The translations under genes were made by a program, and so were the position numbers. A stretch of 64,000 nucleotides of DNA from contig JAXMKZ010000051.1 in NCBI GenBank assembly GCA_034370385.1, positions 1 through 64,000 on the forward strand, given 5' to 3'. The notes beneath the pieces are model-generated. The model made no database searches, was not told the origin of the DNA, and was given only the letters and a program-made list of their open reading frames with translations. Numbering within the stretch: position 1 is the first letter of the stretch; each line of letters starts with the position of its first letter. The DNA comes from Coriobacteriia bacterium. GTDB taxonomy: Bacteria; Actinomycetota; Coriobacteriia; Anaerosomatales; PHET01. Shown piece by piece: positions 925-34,628 of the stretch.

Positions 925-1929
925 GTGTTGGACTTCAAGCGTGTCAGGCCGCTCGACGCGGCCATCGTCGCCCTCGTCGTGGTAGTTGCTATCCTCGGCG
1001 GCTATCTGGGCTACACCGTGTGGCAGAACAGCCGCCAGGTCGTGGGGTCTTCGCCCGTCTCGCGTGGCATCGAGGACCTCGTGGCTTCGGTTCGCCAGAA
1101 CCCCGACAACCTGCCCATGCGCATGCGGTTGGCGCAGGCCTACATGCTCGCTGGGCGTCGCAACGAGGCCGTGGACCAGTACGAGACCATTCTCAAGGCA
1201 AGCAAGGACTACGCGCCTGCGCTAGCCGGTCTGGGCACGTTGGCGCTGCGCGAGGGTGATTTCGCGACGGCCGAGGGCTACTTCCGTCGGGCGTCGGAGC
1301 TGTTCGCCAAGCAGCCGGGCGCGGCGGGCTCGCAGGCACTTGAGCAGTCGTACTTCTACCTAGGCACCGCCCTGCTCGAGCAGAAGGAGTACGAGGAGGC
1401 GTCAAGCTACTTCAAAGCCGCATTGCGCATCAAGCGCGACTCGTCCACGACGCACTATCTGCTCGCGGTCTCTTTGCGCGAGATGGGTCTTGGCTCCGCG
1501 TACCGTGAGGCCCTCGGCAACACGCTGCTGTTCGATCCGAAGCATCCGGAGGCCAACTACGACTACGGTAGGCTCCTCCTCGCAGACGGGGATGAAGCGT
1601 CGGCGGCCGAGCACTTCCGCACGTCGGCGGATTCGGCACCGGGCGTGGATTTCCCGATGGACGCCCTCAATGACATGGGGACCGTCGAGGAGCGCGTGGC
1701 GGCGGCTCGCAAGCTTGCCGCCTCCGACCCGGGGCAGGCGCTCATCGAGGCGCGAGTAGCAGTCGCGATGGATCCGAAGTCGGTTCCGGCGTTCCTGGTG
1801 CTTGGTGACCTGTACGCGGAAGCCGGCAACGAGAACCGAGCGCGCGATGCGTACCGCAAGGTGCTCACGCTGGATGCGGCCAACGATGCGGCGAAGGCCG
1901 GCTTGGAGCGAGTGGGCGATGGATCCTAA
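925..1929 (+). CDS. Membrane-anchored tetratricopeptide-repeat protein
   Basis: 334 residues from GTG 925, chosen because AGGGAG (913-918) lies 6 nt upstream; the in-frame GTG at 862 coincides with the predicted transcription start and has no ribosome-binding site. An N-terminal transmembrane helix (about residues 12-32, rich in V/A/I/L) is followed by TPR-type repeats to the C-terminus, for example segments ending in LRIKRDSSTTHYLLAVSLRE and AGNENRARDAYRKVLTLD. TPR domains scaffold protein complexes; the orientation after one N-terminal helix would place the repeats outside the cytoplasm. The stop overlaps the start of the NHL gene, indicating translational coupling. TPR/NHL pairs beside multiheme cytochromes suggest an assembly or scaffolding role for cytochrome complexes, which is inference. 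Confidence 0.85.
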   Translation: MLDFKRVRPLDAAIVALVVVVAILGGYLGYTVWQNSRQVVGSSPVSRGIEDLVASVRQNPDNLPMRMRLAQAYMLAGRRNEAVDQYETILKASKDYAPALAGLGTLALREGDFATAEGYFRRASELFAKQPGAAGSQALEQSYFYLGTALLEQKEYEEASSYFKAALRIKRDSSTTHYLLAVSLREMGLGSAYREALGNTLLFDPKHPEANYDYGRLLLADGDEASAAEHFRTSADSAPGVDFPMDALNDMGTVEERVAAARKLAASDPGQALIEARVAVAMDPKSVPAFLVLGDLYAEAGNENRARDAYRKVLTLDAANDAAKAGLERVGDGS

Positions 1930-3561: not shown

Positions 3562-3645
3562 GGAGGTTCTAGTCCGGCAACGTGGAACCGCCCGCGATTG
3601 ATATGAACGCGAAACATCGAGATCTCCGAGCTCCTCTGACCTAAC

Positions 3646-3745
3646 GCACCGCCCGCGGTGCCACGGTCGCCGAGCCGCCTAGGGTGTCACGGGAAACGGT
3701 GGCGCCTCCCTCCTTGGAAAGGAGATCGCAGTGCGACGGCCTCAT
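3646..3745 (+). promoter_or_regulatory. Molybdenum-cofactor (Moco/Tuco) riboswitch-like leader
   Basis: The leader of the molybdoenzyme operon folds into a compact structure. Outer stem GTCGC (3666-3670) pairs with GCGAC (3733-3737), stem GCCGCC (674-679 of the 3000 block) pairs with GGTGGC (3698-3703), and then GCCTCCC is followed by CTCC-TTGGAAA-GGAG (3710-3724). The GCCUCCC...UGGAAAGG segment resembles the conserved 3' part of the E. coli moaA Moco RNA as I remember it. A further small hairpin CCTCA-tgcg-TGAGG (3740-3753) follows. The location upstream of a molybdopterin enzyme fits Moco RNAs. Assignment rests on motif recall and location; a covariance-model search would decide. Confidence 0.58.
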
Positions 3746-4002: not shown

Positions 4003-7000
4003 AGACACCGGGCAGCCGGCGTCGGGGATCACGAGACGTGATTTCCTCAAGACGACCGCTGCTGCCACCGCGGTGGCCGGTTGTGGACTCGAGTTCATGT
4101 ACGATCCCGCCAAGGCGGCGGCGTACGAGTCGAGTCCCCTACACACGGTCACCTTCACCACCTGCCCGTACTGCTCCGCCAGCTGCGGTCAGCGGGTCGT
4201 CAAGGAGAACGCCTCAGGCAAGGTCGTCGACATCTACGGCGACTTCCAGTCCCCCTGGAACTCCGGCGGACTGTGCTCCAAGGGCGCAGGCACGCTCCAG
4301 CTCGTGAACAACCCGCGCCGCATCGGCGCATGGACCGGTGCTGAGCTCCAGGAGATGACCGGCAGCACCGATCACCCGGTCAACAACGTCTTCAAGGCGA
4401 CCGGCAGCGACGTGGCCTACAAGCGCGCGGGCAACGACCCCTGGACCGCAGTCCCGCTCGCAGAGGCGATGGAGGACATCGCTGAAGGACTTGTGGCGGC
4501 TCGCGGTGCGCTGAGCACTACGACATACAACCAGAAGAACGTCGCGTTCTTCGGCTCGTCGCATATGAACAACGAGCAGAACTACCTCTACCGCAAGCTG
4601 ATCGCGACGTTCGGCTCGAGCAACGTCGAGCATCAGGCCCGTATATGACACTCGTCCACGGTGGCCGGTCTGGCCGCCGCATTCGGACGTGGTGCAATGA
4701 CGAACAACTGGGCCGACATCGGCAACACGACACTCGTCATGGTCATGGGCGCGAATCCGGTTGAGAACCACCCTGCGTGCATCGCGCACATCAACAGGGC
4801 GCGCTTCCCGAAGGACTACTTCGCCTCCACTGATCCTCGGTCGAACAAGAAGCCGGCCGATCTCATCGTTGTCGACCCCCGGAAGACGCGCACCGCGCTT
4901 CAGGTCGATCCGAACCGACCGGGCGATCGTTACGTCCGTATTCGCCCTGGCACTGACATCGCCTTCGTCAATGGTGTCATCCGCGCAATCATCGCTGAGA
5001 TGGAGACACGCCTAGCAGGGGATCCGGTTCGCGATAAGTTCTACGCGTTCCTGAACCAGGGCGCGAATCCTGCTGCAGCGACGATTCCCGCGTGGTCGCG
5101 CCAGTCCTTCTTCCCCAACAAGTCGACCGGCGGCAGCGGCTTCGGTGCACCGATCTCTGGTGCGGTTGACGGCGGTTCGAAGTACACGGATGCGCGCTTC
5201 ATCATCCGTGGCGACGGCAATGACTACGATCGCGAGGATGTGGGCCTCACGGGCGCTGCGCTGGTCGGCGGCGAGACTCCCGCACAGATCATCTACGGCT
5301 TCCCGAAGAAGGCAGCCACCGTGCTCGGTGATCCCAACACGGTGTACAACCGCCTCAAGGCTCACGTCGATCCGTACACGCAGGCCACCGTCGCCGACAT
5401 CTGCGGCTGCACTACGGCTGACGTACGGTTCGTGGCTGATGCCTACATCGCCAACAGCCGCTGCTCGAGCGGCGCGACACCTGACCCCGACGGCAACTGG
5501 CCCGGTAACGGCCCGACCGGCGTCGGCACTGCGGGTGAGGATCCCCGTAACGCCTCGTATCGTGCCACGACCATGCTCTATGCGATGGGCTTGACGCAGC
5601 ACACGTGCGGAGGCCAGAACGTCAAGTCGTTCGCCGTCCTGCAGACGCTCATGGGCAACCTGGGTCGTGCCGGAGGCGGCATCAATGCCCTGCGTGGTAT
5701 CCACAACGTCCAAGGCTCGACCGACATGGGCGTTCTCTATCACCTGATTCCTGCGTACTCGGGCAATCCGTCGACGCAGGTGACGGCGATTCCGGACACG
5801 ACCACCAACGCGTTCGGTAAGTACATGGACAACCTGTGGGGTTTGCCGTTGTCCGGTACCGGTACTCGCACGGACATGAACGGTTCGTACGACGATGCCT
5901 ACTACACCGCGCGTGGCGCGTTGCAGCAGGCCGGCTTCCTGAACATGACGCGTTTTTGGTTCGGTCCCACGGCTGACGGCACCACTCCCCACATAGCCGA
6001 TGGCGATCGCACCAAGATCGATGCGGCGTACTCGCTGTGGCCGAAGGGCAACGGCGACAACCACGTCCTCATGTTCCGCAAGATGGCGAGTGGTGACACG
6101 AAGGCGGCCGTCGTCTGGGGACAGAACCCCGCGGTCACCGAGCCCAACCAGAGCAAGATCCGGGAAGGCTTCTACAATCTCGATCTGCTTGTTGTCACGG
6201 ATCTCTTCGAGACCGAGACCGCGGGCGTGGACCGTAAGCCCGCCGGTGTGACCTTCCTGCTGCCCTCGTGCTCACATGTGGAGAAGGCAGGCTCGTCGGC
6301 CAACTCCGGTCGCGTGCTGCAGTGGCGCTATCAGTCGACCCTTCCCAGGGGAGCCAGCAAGGACGACACGCACCTGCTGCTGATGCTCGCCAAGGCGCTC
6401 GACGTCAATGTGGTCGGAGGCAGCGCGTTCTCGCACATCAAGGCCGTTTGGGACACCGGTGCGTACGGGTTCACCTACACGGGTTCCGTCTACGACAACC
6501 TGTTCGGCCGCCAGTACGGCTGGGACGGCGCGAGTGACTTCAATGCTGTCTCGCTCGTCGGTGACTACGTGGCCCCGCTGGGCACGACCGTCGACGCCGC
6601 GCCCGGGATCGACACCGGCAAAACGCTGACCGGTTCGGAGGCCGTTGCGGAGTACATGTACCAGCAGATGAGCCGTGCAACCGGTGGCGCAGGTACTCCG
6701 GGAACCGGGTGCATCTGGATCTACACGAACGGTTATTCGACTGGCAAGACCACGAACAAGCATGCCGGCCAGTCCGACTGGGCTGTCTCGAACCGCGCCA
6801 AGTCCCGCAGCCGCTGGGACGGCAACGGCACGTTCGCGTTCCCCGGCTGGGGCTACTCGTGGCTCGTCAACCGCCGCGTACTGTACAACCAGGGCGAGAT
6901 CCCTGGCGACATCAACGACTGGTTCATGAGTGCTGAGTCGCAGTCCAGGATGTTCAATGCGGTTGCCGGCTCCGCACCCGCCCTGCTCAACTACTCTCGC

Positions 7001-7693
7001 TGGTATCGCACGTATCACATGCTGTCGGACACCCCTCGTGGCGACGACAACCTCGTGCCGGCGATACACAAGCAGGGACCGGGCGGCGCGGAGAGCTCAC
7101 GTCGCTTCCCCGGGCATACCGAACCGTACGAGAGTCCTCGCGAGGACCTGGTGGCAACGTGGGGCAAGAACGCGTCTGCCACGGGCGCTCTGGGCACTGG
7201 CACGGCGAACACCTATGAGAACCTGCTGATGAGCGGCACCGCGAAGGGTGCGGTCGCGAGCTTCCCGCTGGTGCTCACCACCATCCGGTGCGTCGAGCAC
7301 TTCCAGGGCGGTCCGATCACGCGCAACAACTGGTGGAATGTCGAGCAGGAGCCCGAGCCGTGGGTCGAGATCAACTCGGCGGACGCGCTGCTGTACGGCA
7401 TCAACGACGGCGACATGGTGAACGTCACCACCGCCCGTTCGAACTCGACGAGCAACCAGGAAGGACGCACCGTGGGCGCTGCCGGATTCGCGAAGGGCTT
7501 CCGCGCACGCGTGGGTGGCGGCCTGCAGGCCAACCAGCGTGTTGGCCGGGGCGTCGTCGCGATTCCGTGGCACTGGGGTGACCGTGGCCTTTCGGCCGGC
7601 TCCCGAGCGAACGACCTCTGTATCGATGCGGGTGATGCGAATACCTACATCCCTGAGTACAAGGCCTGTCTGTGCAAGATCGAGAAGCTGTAA
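3992..7693 (+). CDS. fdhA: Formate dehydrogenase alpha subunit, selenocysteine- and molybdopterin-containing, Tat-exported
   Basis: One 1233-residue protein read through an in-frame UGA at 4646-4648 (Sec219). Annotated without readthrough it would wrongly appear as two ORFs. ATG 3992 follows AGGAAGGA (3977-3984). Twin-arginine signal RRDFLK starts at residue 15. The [4Fe-4S] ligands are C58, C61, C65 and C95 in CPYCSASC...GLCSKG. Around the active site the sequence reads QARI-U-HSSTVAGLA...FGRGAMTNNW, the FdnG/FdoG signature (NQARV-U-H in E. coli), with the catalytic His directly after Sec. The C-terminus has the molybdopterin-dinucleotide binding domain. The enzyme oxidises formate to CO2 outside the membrane. 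It is ~220 residues longer than E. coli FdnG. It is followed by FeS and heme subunits in the same operon, under Rex and Moco-like control. Confidence 0.95.
4646..4678 (+). promoter_or_regulatory. Selenocysteine codon and SECIS hairpin in fdhA
   Basis: UGA 4646-4648 is followed after 11 nt by GGTGGCCGGTCTGGCCGCC (4660-4678). This forms a 7-bp stem (one G-U pair) capped by the pentaloop GGUCU. The E. coli fdhF element as I recall it has the same 11-nt spacing and the same GGUCU apex recognised by SelB. This is direct structural support for Sec insertion rather than a stop. Confidence 0.9.
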
Positions 7694-24750: not shown

Positions 24751-25854
24751 ATGGCGGAGATTGACGCGCTGCTCAAATACATGGCTGACCTCGGAAGCTC
24801 GGACCTGCATGTGAAGGCAGGGTCACCGCCAGCCGTCCGGCTCAACGGCAAGTTGGTTGTCATCAGCGAGATGGACCCCCTGTCGCCTGAGCAGACGCAC
24901 ATGCTCGCGACAGGCATGATGGACGAACTGCAGCAACGTTCGTTCGAGAACCACTGCGAGATCGATTTCGCCTACTCGCTGTCCGGTGTAGGGCGCTTCC
25001 GTGTGAACGTCTTTCATCAGCGGGGGAGTGTCGGCATCACCATGCGTCGGGTCGCAACCGATCGCGCGTCGTTCGAAGATCTTGGCCTGCCCCCCGTCAT
25101 CCGTCGGCTTGCTGACGAGGCGCGCGGACTGATCCTCGTGACCGGTACCGCGGGATCCGGCAAGACCACCACCCTCGCCGCGATGATCGATCACATCAAC
25201 AGCACCCGCGAGGGTCACATCGTGACGATCGAAGATCCCATCGAGGTCATGCACGAGGACAAGAAGTGCATCGTCAATCAACGTGAGATCGGCATCGACA
25301 CCGACAGTTACTCCGACGCCTTGCGCCATGTGGTCCGTCAGGATCCGGACGTGATCCTCATTGGCGAGATGCGTGACCATGAGACCGTGTCAGCCGCTTT
25401 GACCGCGGCCGAGATCGGCAACCTAGTTCTGTCGACGCTGCATACGATAGATGCCACCGAGACCATCAACAGAATCATCGACTTCTTCCCGCCGTACCAG
25501 CAGAAGCAGGTTCGTCTCATGATGGCGGCGACCATCAAGGGAATCGTCTCGTTGCGGCTCATCCCGTCGATATCCGGCGGGCTCGTGCCGGCGGTCGAGG
25601 TCTTGGTCATGACGGGCACCATCCGCGAGTACATCACCGATCCTGAGAAGTCGTACCTGATCCGCGATGCCATGGAAGAGGGCGACTACTACGGGATGCA
25701 GACGTTCGACCAGTCACTTCTCACGCTGTACCAGGATCGGCGAATCACGCTCGACGACGCTGTCGCCATGGCGAACAACGCGCACGACTTCAAGATCAAA
25801 GTCAGGCACCTCGGGATAGATCCGCATTCCGCCGCCGAGAGCGGCGTCTACTGA
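24751..25854 (+). CDS. pilT: Type IV pilus retraction ATPase PilT
   Basis: 367 residues from ATG 24751. The N-terminal PilT PAS-like domain (SSDLHVKAGSPPAVRLNG) leads to the ATPase core: Walker A GTAGSGKTTT (about residue 131), Asp box TIEDPIE, Walker B VILIGEMRD and His box LSTLHTIDA. C-terminal helices are typical of PilT. It powers retraction of type IV pili at the inner face of the membrane. No other pilus gene is in the window. A TAGACT -10-like sequence lies upstream near 24702. Confidence 0.94.
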   Translation: MAEIDALLKYMADLGSSDLHVKAGSPPAVRLNGKLVVISEMDPLSPEQTHMLATGMMDELQQRSFENHCEIDFAYSLSGVGRFRVNVFHQRGSVGITMRRVATDRASFEDLGLPPVIRRLADEARGLILVTGTAGSGKTTTLAAMIDHINSTREGHIVTIEDPIEVMHEDKKCIVNQREIGIDTDSYSDALRHVVRQDPDVILIGEMRDHETVSAALTAAEIGNLVLSTLHTIDATETINRIIDFFPPYQQKQVRLMMAATIKGIVSLRLIPSISGGLVPAVEVLVMTGTIREYITDPEKSYLIRDAMEEGDYYGMQTFDQSLLTLYQDRRITLDDAVAMANNAHDFKIKVRHLGIDPHSAAESGVY

Positions 25855-26261
25855 TCTGGTCTACGCCTGTGGCGCCATGCAGTGACGCTGCTGACGATCG
25901 CCACGGCGACAAGCGCGCCGGCCGTATCGGCAAGCCAGTCCAGCGGGTCGGTCGAGCGCCCGGGTACGAAGAACTGGTGAATCTCATCGGTAACGGCGTA
26001 CGCGGACGCTAGGGCGATCGCGACAAGCGCGCGTCCGACGGGATCTCTCCGGCGGCCGAGCCCCACCGCGAGCAGTGCTCCCAGCACTCCGTACTCAACG
26101 AAGTGGGCCAGGTAGCCGAAACGCCCGGGAACGTTCGAGCCGGGAACCGAAGACACGGCGAAGATGGCTGCGGCCCAGAGCGCTGAAGCCGCCATCGGCC
26201 AGCGCAAAGAGCGGTCGTGTGGTCGCGGCAACGCGTCCTGGGTTTCAGGCGAGTGATTCAC
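25848..26261 (-). CDS. VanZ-like membrane protein
   Basis: 137 residues on the minus strand; its last bases overlap the end of pilT (convergent). VanZ-family hallmarks are HFVEYGVLGALLAVG and TDEIHQFFVPGRSTDPLDWLADTAGA, with three to four TM helices. The biochemical role of the family is poorly defined; vanZ itself affects teicoplanin resistance. A housekeeping membrane role is more likely here than drug resistance. Confidence 0.85.
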   Translation of the reverse strand: MNHSPETQDALPRPHDRSLRWPMAASALWAAAIFAVSSVPGSNVPGRFGYLAHFVEYGVLGALLAVGLGRRRDPVGRALVAIALASAYAVTDEIHQFFVPGRSTDPLDWLADTAGALVAVAIVSSVTAWRHRRRPDQ

Positions 26262-26355
26262 CGCGCGAGTCTACCACCCTGCTTGACGCGATGTCGTCGA
26301 GGTGCGAGCGTTGCGTGGCTTTCCGTTCTGCGTGCTAGGAAGAGGGGTACTGCGC

Positions 26356-27270
26356 GTGTCGCGTCGTTGGAGCCTTGTCGCGGTGGTCGTATCGGCAGCC
26401 TGCTTCGGCACGCTCGCGATTCTCACGCCGCTTGCGTACGACTCGGGCGCACTGCCGCTCCCTCTGCTTGCCTGGCGCTTCGTGATCGCCGCAGCACTCC
26501 TTGCGACGGTGGCGCAGATCCGCGATCCGGGTTCCCTCAGGGTCCCGGCTGGCGACGTCGGCAGATTCGCGGCGCTTGCGCTGACCGGGTACGGAGCGGC
26601 TTCGGTGTGCTTCTTCTTCGCGCTGCTGTATGCGGATGCCGCGGTGGTGGCGGTGTTGCTCTACGCGTATCCCGCGTTCGTGACCATCGCGGGCTGGGCG
26701 TTTCTGGGCGAACGACCGACTCGGGCCGCGACGTTGGCCGTGTGTGCCACCTTCGCCGGGTGCGCTCTTGTGTTGGGGGTCGGGAGCGGGGATATCTATG
26801 CGTCGCTGCCCGGGATACTGTTGGGGCTGGGCGCTGCCGTGGGCTACACGCTGTTCAACCTGCTGTCGCATCGATGGCTTCCCGGCCGCTCGCGGCTGAC
26901 GATGATGGCCTACACATTCGGAATCGCAGCCGTTCTGCCAGCGGCCCTCGCCGTTGGGGGCGGAGGGCTGGCGGCGCTCTCCACCTCTGAGTGGTCGACC
27001 ATCACGTGGGCGCTGCTCGCGGCCATCGTGCTGGTGCCCACGTTCGCGGCGATCGTCTTGTATCTGGAGGGCATTCGCGGGCTTGGGCCCTCCCAGGCTG
27101 CGGTCGTGTCGACGCTCGAGCCCATCTTCACGATAGTCCTTGCGAGGGTCTTTCTGCCGGAGCAGTCCGCGCTCGAACCGCTGCAGCTGGTGGGCGTGGC
27201 GCTCGTCATCGGCGGGGTGGTGGTGGCTGAGATCGGTGCTCGCGCAACGATCGAGCCGGCACCGGTGTAG
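26356..27270 (+). CDS. EamA/DMT-family transporter
   Basis: 304 residues from GTG 26356, with GAGGGG about 9 nt upstream; the frame extends to 26302 without a better start. Ten hydrophobic helices are arranged as two EamA repeats (ACFGTLAILTPLAYDSG...FLGERPT and LGLGAAVGYTLFNLLSHRW...RVFLPEQSALEPLQLVGVALVI). It is probably a metabolite exporter of the inner membrane; the substrate is unknown. It converges with the next minus-strand gene, 8 bp apart. Confidence 0.88.
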   Translation: MSRRWSLVAVVVSAACFGTLAILTPLAYDSGALPLPLLAWRFVIAAALLATVAQIRDPGSLRVPAGDVGRFAALALTGYGAASVCFFFALLYADAAVVAVLLYAYPAFVTIAGWAFLGERPTRAATLAVCATFAGCALVLGVGSGDIYASLPGILLGLGAAVGYTLFNLLSHRWLPGRSRLTMMAYTFGIAAVLPAALAVGGGGLAALSTSEWSTITWALLAAIVLVPTFAAIVLYLEGIRGLGPSQAAVVSTLEPIFTIVLARVFLPEQSALEPLQLVGVALVIGGVVVAEIGARATIEPAPV

Positions 27271-27278
27271 CCGATCCG

Positions 27279-27857
27279 CTACTCGGCCAGCAGCAGGGCG
27301 ACCCAGGCGTTGCGCGCGAACCAGGCGATGATGACGATGGCCGCGTGTGCTCCCCACGCCCATCCGACCGCACGCCACGCATCGGGTGCCGTCACCAGGC
27401 GGCCGCGAAGTACCCGATAGGTGACGACCCCGGAGGCCGCCCACGCCACAGCTGCCAGTACCGGGCCGACCGCCGCAATCCAGGGGATGAGACCGCACGA
27501 CCATGCGAAGCGGATGTCAGCCAAGGGGGTGGTTCGTCTGCGCAGCGTCAGCGCAAGCAGGGCGTAGCGTCCGATTGCCAGGACAACCGAAGTCAGGGCC
27601 GCGATAGTGGCGAGCGCGGTGCTCGGACCCGGGTCGGCCATCAGCATACGAGCGAGTGCCCCGGCAACCAGACACGTCACTCCCCCGATGAGCATGCGGG
27701 TGTCGGCTGTGGGGGGTCGTTGCGTTTGTGCGCCCGCAGAGCGGTAGACTCTCGCGGGCAGGTTCAAGACGCTCGTCAACCAGCGGCGCCACGCCTGAAA
27801 ACCGCGGGCCACAAGGGCCCGCGCGGGCGGTTCGGCACCCTCTTTGCGTGCTACCAT
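27279..27857 (-). CDS. Hypothetical membrane protein
   Basis: 192 residues if read from the ATG at 27857 on the minus strand; the frame continues upstream but into the divergent PBP promoter region. No good ribosome-binding site is seen. An amphipathic N-terminus (GFQAWRRWLTSVLNLPARVY) precedes four or five TM helices (MLIGGVTCLVAGALARMLM, LATIAALTSVVLAIGRYALL, GLIPWIAAVGPVLAAVAWAAS). No family recognised. Confidence 0.6.
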   Translation of the reverse strand: MVARKEGAEPPARALVARGFQAWRRWLTSVLNLPARVYRSAGAQTQRPPTADTRMLIGGVTCLVAGALARMLMADPGPSTALATIAALTSVVLAIGRYALLALTLRRRTTPLADIRFAWSCGLIPWIAAVGPVLAAVAWAASGVVTYRVLRGRLVTAPDAWRAVGWAWGAHAAIVIIAWFARNAWVALLLAE

Positions 27858-27958
27858 ACTCGGGCCGTCTCTGCCGACCTGCGCGGCTGCCCACGGGCGT
27901 TGCGCGCGGCGTCCATGACTATCGACGGCAAGTGTACCCGACGTGAACGGAGGAGCCG

Positions 27959-29929
27959 ATGTCGCTGTCACAGCGCGTCGGCACGGCACTCAAGGTGACC
28001 GCTGGCGTGCTCGTCGCGACGGTGGTGATCACGCTGACCCTCGCCGTCTACCTGTTCAACGTCTCGCAGACGCTCCCGAATCTGGAGGTTGACCCCCGAG
28101 CGCTCGACACGCCCCAGACGTCTGTGGTGTACGCATCAGACGGCACGGTGATCGCGGAATGGCATGGCGAGCAGGATCGAACCATCGTCAGCTACAAGGA
28201 CATGCCGATACACCTCCGCAATGCCGTTGTGGCAGCCGAGGATCGCAGGTTCTGGGAGCACAACGGGGTCGACGTGGAGGGCATAATCCGGGCACTCCGA
28301 GCCAATACGCAGGCAGGGGAGGTTCGGCAGGGCGGCAGCACTATCACCCAGCAGTTGGTGAAGCTGCTCTTCACCGAAGGGGAGCGCACCCTCGACCGTA
28401 AGGTCCGCGAAGCGTTGCTCGCCTACGAGTTCGAGGCCCGTGCGGACAAGGATCGCGTGCTCGAGACGTACCTGAACACGGTGTACTTCGGCAACGGAGC
28501 CTATGGCGTCGAGAGTGCTGCGCGCCGGTACTTCGGTCAGAGCACCTCCGCGCTGAGTCTGGCCGAGAGCGCGACGCTCGCGGGAATCATTCGGTCACCG
28601 ACGCGCTACGACCCGACGAACGATCCTGAAGCGGCACGGCGTCGGCGGGACCTGGTTCTGACATTGATGCGCGAACAGGGGTACATCACGCGCGACGAGC
28701 TACAGGGCGCGCGCAAGGACGGCGTCAAGCTTGCGCCGAAGGCGGATGTACCGACGGTCGCGCCGCATTTCGTCGAGTACGTGAAGCGCGACCTGGTCGA
28801 GAGGCTTGGTTCAGAACGGGTGTTCGCGGGCGGACTGAGGGTCCACACGACGCTCGAGCCCTCGCTGCAGCGGCTTGCGGAGAAGAGCGCACGACTTCTG
28901 AACCGTCCCGATGACCCGGAGACGGCCATCGTCGCGCTGCGCCACTCGGACGGCAGCGTCCTTGCCATGGTGGGCGGTCGCGACTTCTCGAAGAGCCAGT
29001 TCAACCTAGCTACCCAGGGGCGTCGTCAGCCCGGTTCTGCCTTCAAGACGTTCGTTCTCGTGGCGGCACTCGAGAAGGGTGTGAATCCTCAGAAGGTGTA
29101 CAGCGCCGCGCCCTACTCTGTCCGCGTCAAAGACGGAGTCTGGAGAGTGCAGAACTACGAGAACGCGCGGACGAGCGGCAAGCTGACTTTGAGGGCGGCG
29201 ACGAGCTGGTCGGTCAACGCGGTGTATGCGCGTCTCATCATGGAGGTCGGGCCCAAGAAGGTCGTCGAGGTCGCGAAGCGTCTCGGAATCACCACCCCGC
29301 TGAACGCGGACCCGGCGATTGCGCTGGGTGGGTTGAAGACAGGTGTCTCGCCGCTGGAGATGGCGTCCGCGTACGGCACCCTCGCCAACGGTGGGATGAG
29401 GGTTGCGCCAAGCGGCGTGACCAAGGTCACCGACGATCAGGGGGCTGTCATCTATGAGCCAGACGCCGTGGCCGAACGGGTCGTCGACAGTGAGGTAGCC
29501 CTCAAGACCGCCCTCATACTGCACGACGTGATCGAGAAGGGTACCGGCACGTCGGCCAAGATAGGTGCATGGGCGGCCGGCAAGACCGGGACGACACAGT
29601 CCCACCGCGATGCGTGGTTCGTGGGATGGTCGGGGGATGTGTCGACGGCCGTCTGGGTCGGGTACCCTGATGCGCAGGTGGACATGACCAACGTTCACGG
29701 AACTCGCGTGACAGGCGGTAGCTTCCCCGCGAAGATATGGGCTGCATTCATGCGAGGCGTGAAGAAGAACCGTTCGGCTCCGATAGTCACGGCGCCCAGC
29801 GTGGGCAACCAGGTGAGGGTCACCGTGTGCACGGACTCGATGAACATCGCGAACCGTCGATGCCCTCGGCCCGTTGAGATATACCTCGAGCCGGGTCGGG
29901 TTCCGGGAGAAAACTGCACGCTGCACTGA
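27959..29929 (+). CDS. Class A penicillin-binding protein (PBP1A type)
   Basis: 656 residues from ATG 27959 (upstream ACGGAGGAG). One N-terminal TM helix leads to the glycosyltransferase 51 domain with EDRRFWEHNGVD, GGSTITQQLVK and YLNTVYFGNGAYGVE. The transpeptidase domain has SxxK in PGSAFKTF, SxN in SWSVN and KTGT near residue 542. All catalytic motifs are intact. It polymerises and cross-links peptidoglycan outside the membrane. The J-domain gene starts within 32 bp of its stop. Confidence 0.95.
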   Translation: MSLSQRVGTALKVTAGVLVATVVITLTLAVYLFNVSQTLPNLEVDPRALDTPQTSVVYASDGTVIAEWHGEQDRTIVSYKDMPIHLRNAVVAAEDRRFWEHNGVDVEGIIRALRANTQAGEVRQGGSTITQQLVKLLFTEGERTLDRKVREALLAYEFEARADKDRVLETYLNTVYFGNGAYGVESAARRYFGQSTSALSLAESATLAGIIRSPTRYDPTNDPEAARRRRDLVLTLMREQGYITRDELQGARKDGVKLAPKADVPTVAPHFVEYVKRDLVERLGSERVFAGGLRVHTTLEPSLQRLAEKSARLLNRPDDPETAIVALRHSDGSVLAMVGGRDFSKSQFNLATQGRRQPGSAFKTFVLVAALEKGVNPQKVYSAAPYSVRVKDGVWRVQNYENARTSGKLTLRAATSWSVNAVYARLIMEVGPKKVVEVAKRLGITTPLNADPAIALGGLKTGVSPLEMASAYGTLANGGMRVAPSGVTKVTDDQGAVIYEPDAVAERVVDSEVALKTALILHDVIEKGTGTSAKIGAWAAGKTGTTQSHRDAWFVGWSGDVSTAVWVGYPDAQVDMTNVHGTRVTGGSFPAKIWAAFMRGVKKNRSAPIVTAPSVGNQVRVTVCTDSMNIANRRCPRPVEIYLEPGRVPGENCTLH

Positions 29930-30281: not shown

Positions 30282-30629
30282 TCAGGCTTGCGCGAGCTCC
30301 GCGCGCTCGGCCACCTTGTTCTGGACTGCGCGCATGATCGCGGGGTAGCTGACGGCCCCATCGTAGACAAGCACTCCGTCGACCGAAGTCACGGGGTACA
30401 TCAGTCCGCGTTGCTCGATCTGGGCAACCACCTCGGAGTGCTCAGCGCGTTCGTCAGCCAGCTGTACGTTGTGGTACAGAACCCGAGCTTCATCGCCGTA
30501 GCGCCGCTCGAGTTCGGTGCGGATGATGGCTGTGATCTCCTCCGGAGACCAAGAGGGGCCTCAACCGCCGGAGAAACAGTCAGCGGGGGAGGGCACGTCG
30601 TACACCTCGACGATGATGGGTTCAGTCAC
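30282..30629 (-). CDS. ArsD-like thioredoxin-fold selenoprotein (C-x4-Sec)
   Basis: 115 residues on the minus strand, GTG start at 30629, stop TGA 30282-30284, with one in-frame UGA at 30561-30563 read as Sec23. AGGAG lies 7 nt before the GTG and the ferredoxin stop is 13 bp upstream. The product runs MTEPIIVEVYDVPSPADCFS, then GG-Sec-GPSWSPEEITAII. A first beta strand thus leads to Cys18-F-S-G-G-Sec23, placed like the Cys13-x4-Cys18 metalloid site of ArsD. A strand/turn with YPVTSVDGVLVYDG and a final helix complete a thioredoxin-like fold, also recalling YuzD. A redox or metal(loid)-handling role is inferred. A pseudogene with a nonsense mutation is the alternative, but everything else is intact and the genome demonstrably uses Sec. 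Confidence 0.78.
30539..30563 (-). promoter_or_regulatory. Sec codon and SECIS-like hairpin of the small selenoprotein
   Basis: On the minus strand UGA (30563-30561) is followed by GGCC and then CCTCTTGGTCTCCGGAGG (30556-30539). This forms a stem of about seven pairs with one bulged U and the sequence GGUCU at its apex, as in E. coli-type SECIS elements. The apex is only 10 nt from the UGA versus 18 nt in fdhA, so the geometry is unusual. Confidence 0.5.
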
Positions 30630-30642
30630 GTTGACGCTCCTG

Positions 30643-30846
30643 TCAGTTGAAGCGGACGGCTCCGCCTGCACAGACCCGCATGCAGATTCCGCAACCGGCG
30701 CATTTCTCATCTATGACGGTGTACCCGTTGGCGCCGGGATACGATCCTCCTGCAAGAGGAACGATAGCATCCTTGGGGCAGACGCGACGGGCGGGGCACC
30801 CGGGGGACCGGTCACACGATGTGTTCTCGATACTGATCGCTGGCAT
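30643..30846 (-). CDS. Small ferredoxin-like [4Fe-4S] protein
   Basis: 67 residues on the minus strand from ATG at 30846, chosen because AAAGGA lies 9 nt upstream; the ATG at 30855 is too close to that site. Cysteines form two groups, CDRSPGCPARRVCPKDAI and CAGCGICMRVC. The second is a canonical ferredoxin CxxCxxCxxxC. The first is spaced more widely, so one or two [4Fe-4S] clusters are possible. It is the first gene of a two-gene operon with the selenoprotein and is a plausible electron donor for it (inference). Confidence 0.87.
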   Translation of the reverse strand: MPAISIENTSCDRSPGCPARRVCPKDAIVPLAGGSYPGANGYTVIDEKCAGCGICMRVCAGGAVRFN

Positions 30847-30890: not shown

Positions 30891-30920
30891 ATAATACCCC
30901 ATGGGGTATGCCATGTGCAA
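30891..30920 (-). promoter_or_regulatory. Promoter with CsoR/CstR-like palindromic operator
   Basis: On the minus strand TTGCAC (30920-30915), an 18-bp spacer and TATTAT (30896-30891) form a promoter toward the ferredoxin gene. The spacer and the edge of the -10 contain the perfect 16-bp palindrome ATACCCCATGGGGTAT (30894-30909). An A/T-flanked C-tract facing a G-tract is the operator type of CsoR, CstR, RcnR and FrmR repressors. No such repressor gene is in the window, so the signal (copper, persulfide, formaldehyde, other metal) is open. Confidence 0.65.
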
Positions 30921-32387: not shown

Positions 32388-34628
32388 ATGCCCAAGATCT
32401 CGCTGGCCGGGTTCAAGGACCCGGTGCGCCGACCGCGCTTCATCATCTGGACAGGCGTTGCTGTCCTGGTGCTTGCAGCGGTCATGATCGTTGCACTGGG
32501 GGTGACTTCTACCCGGTGGTTCTGTGCCGAGGTGTGCCACAAGGTTCAGGACGACTCGATCATCGCGTATCAGCGTTCGTCACACTCTGAGGTCTCGTGC
32601 ATGGCATGTCACATGCCCGTGAACGCGGATCCGGTGACGTTCATCCTCCACAAGGCAGAGGCACTCGGTGAGTTGTACCTGACGGTGACGGACAACTTCC
32701 ACTTGCCGCTCAACGCAGAGTCCCATGTCGCTCTGTCGATGGCATCCAAGCAGTGCACGCAGTGCCACAACTTGAAGAACCGCGTGATCACGCCGTCGAA
32801 GGGCATCAAGATCGAGCACGAGCCCCACGCCGAGGTCAACGCGGCGTGTTCTGTGTGCCACAACCGCATCGCGCATCGTGAGGACTTCGAGCTCACGCTG
32901 ACCGACCCCGGTACAGGCAAGCCGAACCAGAAGCACGATGACTTCATGTCGATGACGGCGTGTTTCCGCTGCCACGACCTGGGCAAGGATGCTGCGGCAC
33001 CAGGAGCGTGCGTGGCCTGTCATCCGGCGGACTTCGAGCTCAAGCCGGACAATCACAAGGAGAAGGGCTTCTATCCTGCGGGCCATGCAGAGATGGCCCT
33101 GGAGATGAAGGCTGAGTCCGACGCCGCCGCGAGTGGCCATGAGGGCGAAGAGGGCGAAGAGGGCGAAGAGGGCGAAGAGGGCGAAGAGGGCGAAGAGGGC
33201 TCGAAGGAGAGCACCGAGAGCACTGCCCCTGCAGAGGAGAAGGAGGGCAGCTTCCTGACCCCTGAGAAGGCCTATGCCAGCGGGGGCGCGGTGCACGAGT
33301 CAGTCACGAAGGAGGAGGTGCCGGGGGTTCTCGAGGCACAGAAGGAGCACGGCAACAGCGACAGCGAGAGCGTCGGCGGCTTCCTTCCGAAGGTCGACTC
33401 CATCTTCTACTGCGGCACGTGCCACGTCGAGACATTCTGCACCAACTGTCACGGCATGGAGATGCCGCACCCGGATGAGTTCAGAGAGCCCAAGGAGCCC
33501 AAGGACAAGGCGGGCCACCCGGTCATCTCCGAGGCCAAGCCCGAGAAGTGCGTCTTGTGCCACGGCAAGAACGAGAAGACCGCCTTCTGCGACAGCTGTC
33601 ACCACGGAACCGCAGTTGGGTGGGAGTTCAGCAAGACCCAGCCCTGGACCCAGAAGCAGCACCCGCTGGCCGTTGCCAAGTCGGGCGTGAAGCCGTGCCT
33701 TGACTGCCACCCGAAGAAGTTCTGCGTGGATTGCCACACGGGCAAGAACGTCGTGCCCGACTCGCACAACGCGCAGTACTGGACGAAGCCGAAGTACCCC
33801 GGCGCGCTCACCACGTTCGGCGAGAAGCCCGCAGCGGCTTCGGCGAAGCACGCACTCGATGCGCAGAAGTCGATCGAGTCGTGTGAGGTCTGCCACGGCG
33901 ACGGTGGAACCAAGGCACCGTTCTGCAAGGCCTGCCACAAGACGGAGATCCCGCACGCCGCCGAGTTCAAGACGAACCACGTCAGCTCCAAGAAGAACCC
34001 GAAACCGTGCGTCCAATGCCACGCGTGGCCTGAGCTGTGCAGCAACTGCCACCATATCGATTCGTCGACGACGAAGTCGTGGATGTCGCTGCACGGAACT
34101 TCGGTCAACACGAACAAGCCTGCGGGATGCATCGAGAAATGCCATGAGAAGAACGACTGTGTGAAGTGCCACCAGCAGCGCAAGGTGGTTCCCGCTTCCC
34201 ACAAGAACAGCAAGTTCACTCGTGACTTCTCGTCCAAGGACGCTCAGCACGTTGCTCTGTACAAGAAGGACGGAGAGATCTGCACGTACTGCCACGCCGG
34301 CGCTGCGGCAGAGCTCCCGAACTCGAAGTTCTGCAAGAGCTGTCATAAGCTCGAGATGCCGCACAAGATCAACGATGCGGAGAAGCAGAAGTTCATGCAC
34401 AAGGATCAGTTCGAGAAGAAGCAGTACAACAAGAAGCAGTGCGCGAACTGCCACCGCGACTCCTTCTGTAACGACTGTCACCACGAGGGCAACAGCCCCG
34501 ATAAGCCGTGGGTACGCTATCACCCGAACCTGGTGAAGAAGAACGGTGCTGAGCCGTGCTTCGAGTGTCACCAGCCGACCTTCTGCGCCAACTGCCACGT
34601 GAACCTGGCGAAGAAGGGTCTCATGTAA
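32388..34628 (+). CDS. 24-heme cytochrome c with NrfH/NapC-like membrane anchor
   Basis: 746 residues from ATG 32388. A TM helix (residues ~19-41) is followed by a four-heme NapC/NrfH-like segment (CAEVCH, CMACH, CTQCH, CSVCH) and then by many more hemes. I count 22 CxxCH and two CxxxCH (CAEVCH, CIEKCH). Residues ~252-272 are a Glu-Gly repeat encoded by a 9-bp tandem repeat, separating the six-heme N-terminal part from the 18-heme C-terminal part. The NrfH/NapC family takes electrons from quinol, so this protein may fuse quinol oxidation to a long heme wire outside the cell membrane (inference). It is preceded by a 212-bp intergenic stretch and followed by a terminator. Confidence 0.93.
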   Translation: MPKISLAGFKDPVRRPRFIIWTGVAVLVLAAVMIVALGVTSTRWFCAEVCHKVQDDSIIAYQRSSHSEVSCMACHMPVNADPVTFILHKAEALGELYLTVTDNFHLPLNAESHVALSMASKQCTQCHNLKNRVITPSKGIKIEHEPHAEVNAACSVCHNRIAHREDFELTLTDPGTGKPNQKHDDFMSMTACFRCHDLGKDAAAPGACVACHPADFELKPDNHKEKGFYPAGHAEMALEMKAESDAAASGHEGEEGEEGEEGEEGEEGEEGSKESTESTAPAEEKEGSFLTPEKAYASGGAVHESVTKEEVPGVLEAQKEHGNSDSESVGGFLPKVDSIFYCGTCHVETFCTNCHGMEMPHPDEFREPKEPKDKAGHPVISEAKPEKCVLCHGKNEKTAFCDSCHHGTAVGWEFSKTQPWTQKQHPLAVAKSGVKPCLDCHPKKFCVDCHTGKNVVPDSHNAQYWTKPKYPGALTTFGEKPAAASAKHALDAQKSIESCEVCHGDGGTKAPFCKACHKTEIPHAAEFKTNHVSSKKNPKPCVQCHAWPELCSNCHHIDSSTTKSWMSLHGTSVNTNKPAGCIEKCHEKNDCVKCHQQRKVVPASHKNSKFTRDFSSKDAQHVALYKKDGEICTYCHAGAAAELPNSKFCKSCHKLEMPHKINDAEKQKFMHKDQFEKKQYNKKQCANCHRDSFCNDCHHEGNSPDKPWVRYHPNLVKKNGAEPCFECHQPTFCANCHVNLAKKGLM
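33141..33200 (+). repeat. 9-bp tandem repeat (gagggcgaa) inside the 24-heme cytochrome gene
   Basis: Six full copies of gagggcgaa plus gagggc, with no mismatches. It encodes EGE repeats in the linker between heme blocks. Because the unit is a multiple of three, copy-number change by slippage would alter linker length without breaking the frame. Confidence 0.95.

Follow-up and report, generated by a model that had tools for sequence, protein, structure and literature searches.

The window, as the whole 64,000-nucleotide stretch of DNA analysed here is called, carries on its minus strand a ferredoxin gene closely followed by a second gene. The ferredoxin (30643-30846, 67 amino acids) contains two Cys4 motifs (C-x5-C-x5-CP and C-x2-C-x2-C-x3-C), matches Pfam Fer4 above cut-off, stands first in the predicted operon and recurs in most loci of the order. 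It ends at 30643, 13 nt ahead of the GTG start of the second gene (30629-30282), and a Shine-Dalgarno sequence AGGAG (30641-30637) lies 7 nt before this start. The second frame has 115 codons and closes with a TGA (30284-30282); its sole internal stop is a UGA at codon 23 (30561-30563), read here as selenocysteine (Sec). The predicted product has a thioredoxin-like fold and a Cys18-x4-Sec23-Gly-Pro motif. Upstream of both genes is a sigma-70-like promoter (TGCACA, 17 nt, TATTAT; 30920-30891, minus strand), with an operator-like palindrome of the CsoR/CstR type, ATACCC-CATG-GGGTAT (ATACCCnnnnGGGTAT; 30894-30909, given without strand), in its spacer.

The earlier note had reported the frame with its lone UGA, the ribosome-binding site and the tight spacing to the ferredoxin gene, and all of these are present in the sequence. 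Its statement that the gene would be invisible to gene finders was also borne out. Among minus-strand ORFs of 60 amino acids or more none covers the frame, and a 126-amino-acid antisense ORF overlies it, so that standard gene calling would miss the gene.

Relatives were sought in 84,980 species genomes. The 28 found, all from MAGs titled Actinomycetota and mostly Coriobacteriia/Anaerosomatales, have TGA at the identical codon (28/28, from named genomes). Within the class the gene was present in 63 of 398 genomes with an in-frame TGA in every match (63/63), the position being identical wherever the codon was read. The homologous UGA was retained in the further subfamilies f46, f48, f54, f98 and f88 of the phylum, including other classes. 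The C-x4-Sec motif described in the earlier note was found in the window gene, and is refined to C-x3-Sec in two subfamilies. The only invariant columns in an alignment of 23 representatives were Cys18, Gly22, Sec23, Gly24, Ser28, Glu31 and Tyr52. Changes 3′ of the UGA were mostly synonymous (dN/dS approximately 0.03-0.12 for close pairs and 0.13-0.37 for distant pairs). The conservation in relatives and these ratios rule out chance or sequencing error as the source of the UGA. General reassignment of UGA was rejected because the selenoprotein gene and the ferredoxin gene upstream both terminate in TGA.

The earlier note had suggested a search for homologues in which position 23 is Cys or Sec, and had named unrelated residues or other stops at this site as evidence against its reading. 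The relatives have Sec (UGA 28/28 and 63/63), and Cys stands in the same profile column in ArsD (Cys18) and YuzD (Cys22 of 1xg8), as it does at locus L165. Two further loci, L159 and L162, had been read as Cys homologues; this reading was dropped, because each turned out to be a Sec relative, with an in-frame TGA lying a few codons farther upstream. A search of plasmids for the gene family gave no match.

The sequence beyond the UGA was predicted to form a bacterial selenocysteine insertion element (bSECIS). The apical hairpin UGGUCUCC-GGA-GGAGAUCA (30551-30533, minus strand) presents its GGA loop (30541-30543) starting 17 nt past the UGA and folds with a minimum free energy (MFE) of -12.8 kcal/mol. 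The published bSECIS model describes a loop of 3-9 nt with G in the first two loop positions, placed 16-37 nt from the UGA, and an MFE of -7.5 or lower (PMC13188914), and all of these features are found in the window hairpin. Codons U+5 to U+9 (TCT CCG GAG GAG ATC) were synonymously identical in 29/29 genes (CCG in 28/29); the flanking codons showed the usual synonymous variation. The mean MFE in the order was -14.6 kcal/mol, and synonymous recodings averaged -9.5 kcal/mol. The 8-bp helix was fully paired (100% of cells) in 19 sequences drawn from the order and from f48, f54 and f17; its innermost pair varied between C-G, U-A and A-U, and the covariation score was reached by 0 of 500 shuffles. 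Subfamily f46 forms the same hairpin from another sequence, with a GGC-type loop, and the MFE fold differs in two f48 sequences. Single folds were not each significant against synonymous recoding (24/43 in the order, 1/7 in f48), and the case for the element is accordingly drawn from conservation and covariation rather than from individual fold significance.

The genes for selenocysteine insertion lie side by side on contig C11 of the source genome: tRNA-Sec (24924-25016, 69 bits), selB (25123-27012, 356 bits) and selA (27057-28412, 609 bits). The statement in the earlier note that the genome uses Sec in fdhA was upheld, as fdhA has a UGA at 4646-4648 (plus strand) within UHSSTV, followed by a stable hairpin of its own with the loop GGUCU. 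A molybdenum-cofactor riboswitch (3612-3740, plus strand; Rfam RF01055, 64 bits) was observed approximately 0.9 kb upstream of the fdhA UGA.

Across the order, selB or tRNA-Sec was detected in 53 of the 61 genomes that have the gene and in 4 of the 8 that do not (one-sided Fisher p 0.026). Counter to the Sec reading, eight MAGs retain the UGA gene while neither selB nor tRNA-Sec was found in them (G047, G051, G073, G111, G099, G115, G133 and G145); selA was likewise absent from the four of these tested (G047, G051, G073 and G111), and one of the eight is a 98% complete, 10-contig genome. Gaps in assembly or a recent loss may account for the missing genes. These MAGs are what could be cited for reading the UGA as a genuine stop, as damage in a pseudogene or as an error of sequencing. 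That explanation is hardly credible, because dozens of independent genomes share this UGA, selection is purifying before and after it, the SECIS covaries, and ArsD and YuzD have Cys at this position. The conserved UGA, the frozen and covarying hairpin, the Cys counterparts and the presence of selA, selB and tRNA-Sec lead us to predict that the window gene almost certainly encodes a selenoprotein.

The AF2 model of the protein is a thioredoxin fold (pLDDT 87.8, with lower confidence in the active-site loop, residues 11-30) in which the Cys-x(3,4)-Sec-Gly motif sits between beta1 and alpha1. Its best PDB match was 1xg8 of S. aureus (Foldseek E 2.3e-5, TM 0.61/0.64, rmsd 4.9), followed by matches that included ArsD (3ktb) and thioredoxins. 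The earlier note had proposed a thioredoxin-like fold with kinship to ArsD, which is supported by these matches and by the profile comparisons with ArsD and YuzD that it had suggested. The best Pfam match was DUF1462 (PF07315), at 29.5 bits against a gathering cut-off of 25, and DUF1462 was matched by 18 of 23 family members at E ≤ 0.01. Alignment of the family with ArsD by hhalign gave 97.2% (E 3.3e-11) and placed the Cys-x4-Cys18-Gly-Pro of ArsD on Cys-x4-Sec-Gly-Pro, at the matching position pointed out in the earlier note. On these comparisons the protein shares homology with ArsD, and its nearest family is YuzD/DUF1462. YuzD resembles it in the DUF1462 score, in 1xg8 being the best PDB match by both Foldseek and HMM, and in Cys22 occupying the Sec column; it differs in having neither Sec nor the C-x(3,4)-U-G-P context. 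We know of no ferredoxin operon or CsoR-type operator for YuzD, and the literature on the function of YuzD/DUF1462 yielded nothing useful beyond fold classification.

A bona fide ArsD was ruled out. The curated ArsD scores were not reached (PF06953, 18.8 against 27 bits; NF033727, 15.9 against 90). In ArsD the triad Cys12-Cys13-Cys18 is essential and forms the As(III) site (PMC4562236), whereas the adjacent Cys12/Cys13 pair is missing here and only Cys18 and Sec23 are present, both columns being invariant in the 23-member alignment. Full-length ArsA was absent from the source genome, which gave partial P-loop matches only. It was not matched in most relatives tested and was present in G485 and G621. 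The locus in the window also differs from ArsD loci in lacking an ars operon. Both soft metalloids and sulfur may have been ligands of the ancestor common to ArsD and the Sec family.

Gene neighbours were taken from targeted reading of the loci, as all-against-all ORF clustering was swamped by antisense ORFs of the GC-rich DNA. The ferredoxin gene lies directly upstream of the Sec gene in most loci of the order; in f46 it stands farther upstream, separated from the Sec gene by the gene for a small helical-looking protein. Ferredoxin was missing in several members of the order and in f17 among the loci read, and so cannot be the sole reductant. The Sec gene of f48 follows just downstream of a gene for a ThiI/MnmA-like PP-loop enzyme, and a 2-thiouracil desulfurase occurs in 2 of 3 wider f48 loci. 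In f54 the palindrome heads a pair formed by trxA and the Sec gene. Genome G621 (L178) has a diverged Sec relative within an arsD-arsR-arsA-arsA-FmdB-acr3 operon, a true ArsD standing beside it, and in G464 (L181) a Cys relative adjoins a likely arsM.

Of 60 distinct loci, 50 have the palindrome ATACCC-N(4,5)-GGGTAT no more than 700 nt upstream, distributed as 42/43 in the order, 7/7 in f46, 1/1 in f98, 0/7 in f48 and 0/2 in f17. Exact copies of its arms were found nowhere else in the remaining 356 kb of the same loci. It adjoined the Sec gene itself in 4 of 5 cases read among order loci without ferredoxin. The 2.69-Mb source genome contains seven sites and none of the reversed control, located at the Sec operon, a thioredoxin, a CcdA-type protein, a rhodanese, an ACR3-like transporter, a large FAD/Fe-S oxidoreductase and one position without a clear target. 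Elsewhere the palindrome occurs at csoR/trxA and at rhodaneses (G003, G016 and G075), at ccdA (G003), at a DsrE/DsrF/DsrH trio (G454) and at an oxidoreductase closest to sulfide:quinone reductase (G616). An ACR3-like SBF transporter behind the palindrome was observed in two genera (L117 2357-3349, minus strand; L170 1130-2239, minus strand), and the regulons of the source genome G000 and of G075 include such a transporter. Its substrate may be arsenite, sulfite or thiosulfate.

The source genome has a single CsoR-family gene (C59:94006-94236), whose promoter contains a similar site. The product of this gene contains Cys-x28-Cys, as in C31/C60 of CstR, and Ala replaces the copper-sensor His, as in 7mq3; because of this replacement copper-type CsoR control is disfavoured. 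CstR senses per- and polysulfides through C31 and C60 (PMC5480029). Inverted repeats of the TAC/GTA kind have been described as operators through which CsoR-family regulators control sulfur genes (PMC10318464). By its residues the lone regulator resembles the persulfide sensor CstR, and we infer that it acts at the palindrome. CstR systems (S. aureus cst; the CsoR-family TTHA1953 of Thermus) share with this putative regulon the Cys-x28-Cys spacing, the absence of the copper His, a predicted operator of the TAC/GTA inverted-repeat type, and rhodanese, thioredoxin and sulfide:quinone reductase-like targets. They differ in that the putative targets are here dispersed across the genome, a selenoprotein-ferredoxin pair being one of them.

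Read from its sequence, the locus comprises a predicted bSECIS selenoprotein with Cys-x(3,4)-Sec-Gly, placed in a two-gene operon with ferredoxin and under a putative CsoR-family operator at the promoter. The reading that we prefer, to which we assign a probability of roughly 0.55, is that the protein would serve as a Cys/Sec reductase or carrier of sulfane sulfur, coupled to ferredoxin or thioredoxin. Persulfides or polysulfides would oxidise the CstR-like CsoR-family repressor and thereby derepress the operon. Sec23 would then attack the sulfane sulfur of a protein or low-molecular-weight persulfide, a polysulfide or a trisulfide, and Cys18 would resolve the Sec-S intermediate, with sulfide being released or the sulfur passed on. 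The resulting selenenylsulfide would be reduced by the co-encoded ferredoxin or by a co-regulated thioredoxin/CcdA pathway. Selenocysteine may have been chosen for speed and for resistance to over-oxidation.

The main rival of this sulfane-sulfur model is metalloid handling, in which Cys18 and Sec23 would bind a soft metal such as As(III) or Sb(III) in the manner of ArsD and hand it on for efflux, for example by the ACR3-like transporter of the regulon. The homology to ArsD with Sec aligned to its Cys18, the Sec relative in the ars operon of G621, the Cys relative by the likely arsM of G464, and the ACR3-like transporters behind the palindrome in G000 and G075 all suit such a chaperone; the last three stand among the points against the sulfur model. 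The sulfur model also has to accommodate the Sec genes of f48 and f17, which have no palindrome. The reduction of the ArsD triad (PMC4562236) to Cys-x4-Sec, the missed ArsD cut-offs, the want of a full-length ArsA match in G000 and most relatives tested, and the true ArsD already standing beside the Sec gene in G621 nevertheless make a metalloid chaperone unlikely, as does a regulon made up mostly of rhodanese, thioredoxin, CcdA and DsrEFH. In this genome the ferredoxin partner, the CsoR/CstR-type operator and the bSECIS hairpin favour sulfane-sulfur or thiol chemistry. The selenium-containing redox or metalloid-handling protein proposed in the earlier note therefore stands as a selenoprotein with a thioredoxin-like fold; its metalloid part is less favoured here, with arsenic loci found around the relatives at L178 and L181.

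Two further functions would keep the chemistry of the Cys/Sec pair and change its setting. A general Sec enzyme acting as a thiol-disulfide oxidoreductase or peroxidase, supplied with electrons by ferredoxin or thioredoxin and bearing no particular relation to sulfane sulfur, would agree with the thioredoxin fold, the Cys/Sec pair and the operon partners, and most known selenoproteins are of this type (PMC13188914). We consider it improbable, as the operator is common to rhodaneses, DsrEFH and the sulfide:quinone reductase-like gene, and f48 is associated with genes for tRNA thiolation and thiouracil desulfuration. These same f48 neighbours, the PP-loop gene just upstream and the desulfurase in 2 of 3 wider loci, could instead indicate a carrier of sulfur (or selenium) to tRNA-thiolating enzymes, like TusA/TusBCD. 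This role is highly improbable, the neighbourhood being confined to f48 and such genes being absent from the order-level and f46 operons. Returning to the sulfane-sulfur model, the stronger proposal that a ferredoxin-driven Cys/Sec sulfane-sulfur reductase or carrier with a CstR-like switch and an origin shared with ArsD represents a new class of selenoenzyme is tentative, and falls somewhat short of even odds. If true, it would tie the use of Sec to reactive-sulfur homeostasis in anaerobic actinobacteria.

To our knowledge, no Sec form of the ArsD/DUF1462 branch has been known before. Neither an ArsD- or DUF1462-like family nor a C-x(3,4)-U-G motif is among the 119 prokaryotic selenoprotein families of the May 2026 catalogue (PMC13188914), and NCBIfam of June 2026 has no model that reaches its cut-off for this Sec family; novelty is claimed relative to these two sources. 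As the family is in neither, current annotation probably omits its UGA-containing genes or gives them in truncated form. Known thioredoxin-fold selenoproteins (Trx UxxC, Grx, DsrE-like UxxC, SaoT and CxxU AhpD-like) are similar in being small, mostly of thioredoxin fold, with Sec in a redox Cys pair and a bSECIS, and differ from the window protein in family and motif. The family adds to the prokaryotic selenoproteome, and the operon with its putative operator offers a way to test directly whether Sec is linked to ferredoxin and persulfide sensing.

Several minor observations were made at the loci read. The diverged Sec relative of L178 (approximately 7170-7490, plus strand; the same site as L159) reads GAGG-U-GPVCEPADCGP, with extra cysteines downstream of Sec, and the DNA past its UGA folds stably, as a candidate SECIS. 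The f46 genomes have a second diverged Sec paralogue, VVVVYSTLPSG-U-SSSGAAGGCGL (L162, approximately 962-1243, plus strand; L182, 4573-4857, minus strand), whose UGA is kept in two genomes. A gene for an FmdB-like small zinc-ribbon protein lies by a thioredoxin or Sec gene in unrelated families (L121 11374-11583, minus strand; L178 7533-7751; L180 5345-5578), and its product may also belong to the system. The small, charged, helical-looking protein ahead of the Sec gene is conserved in f46 and f98 (L093, approximately -375 to -78 relative to the UGA; L097, 5343-5699), and the L097 copy gave no Pfam match. Near the operon the window also encodes a multihaem cytochrome c of 746 amino acids (32388-34628, plus strand), relatives of which are found near the Sec gene in several further genomes.
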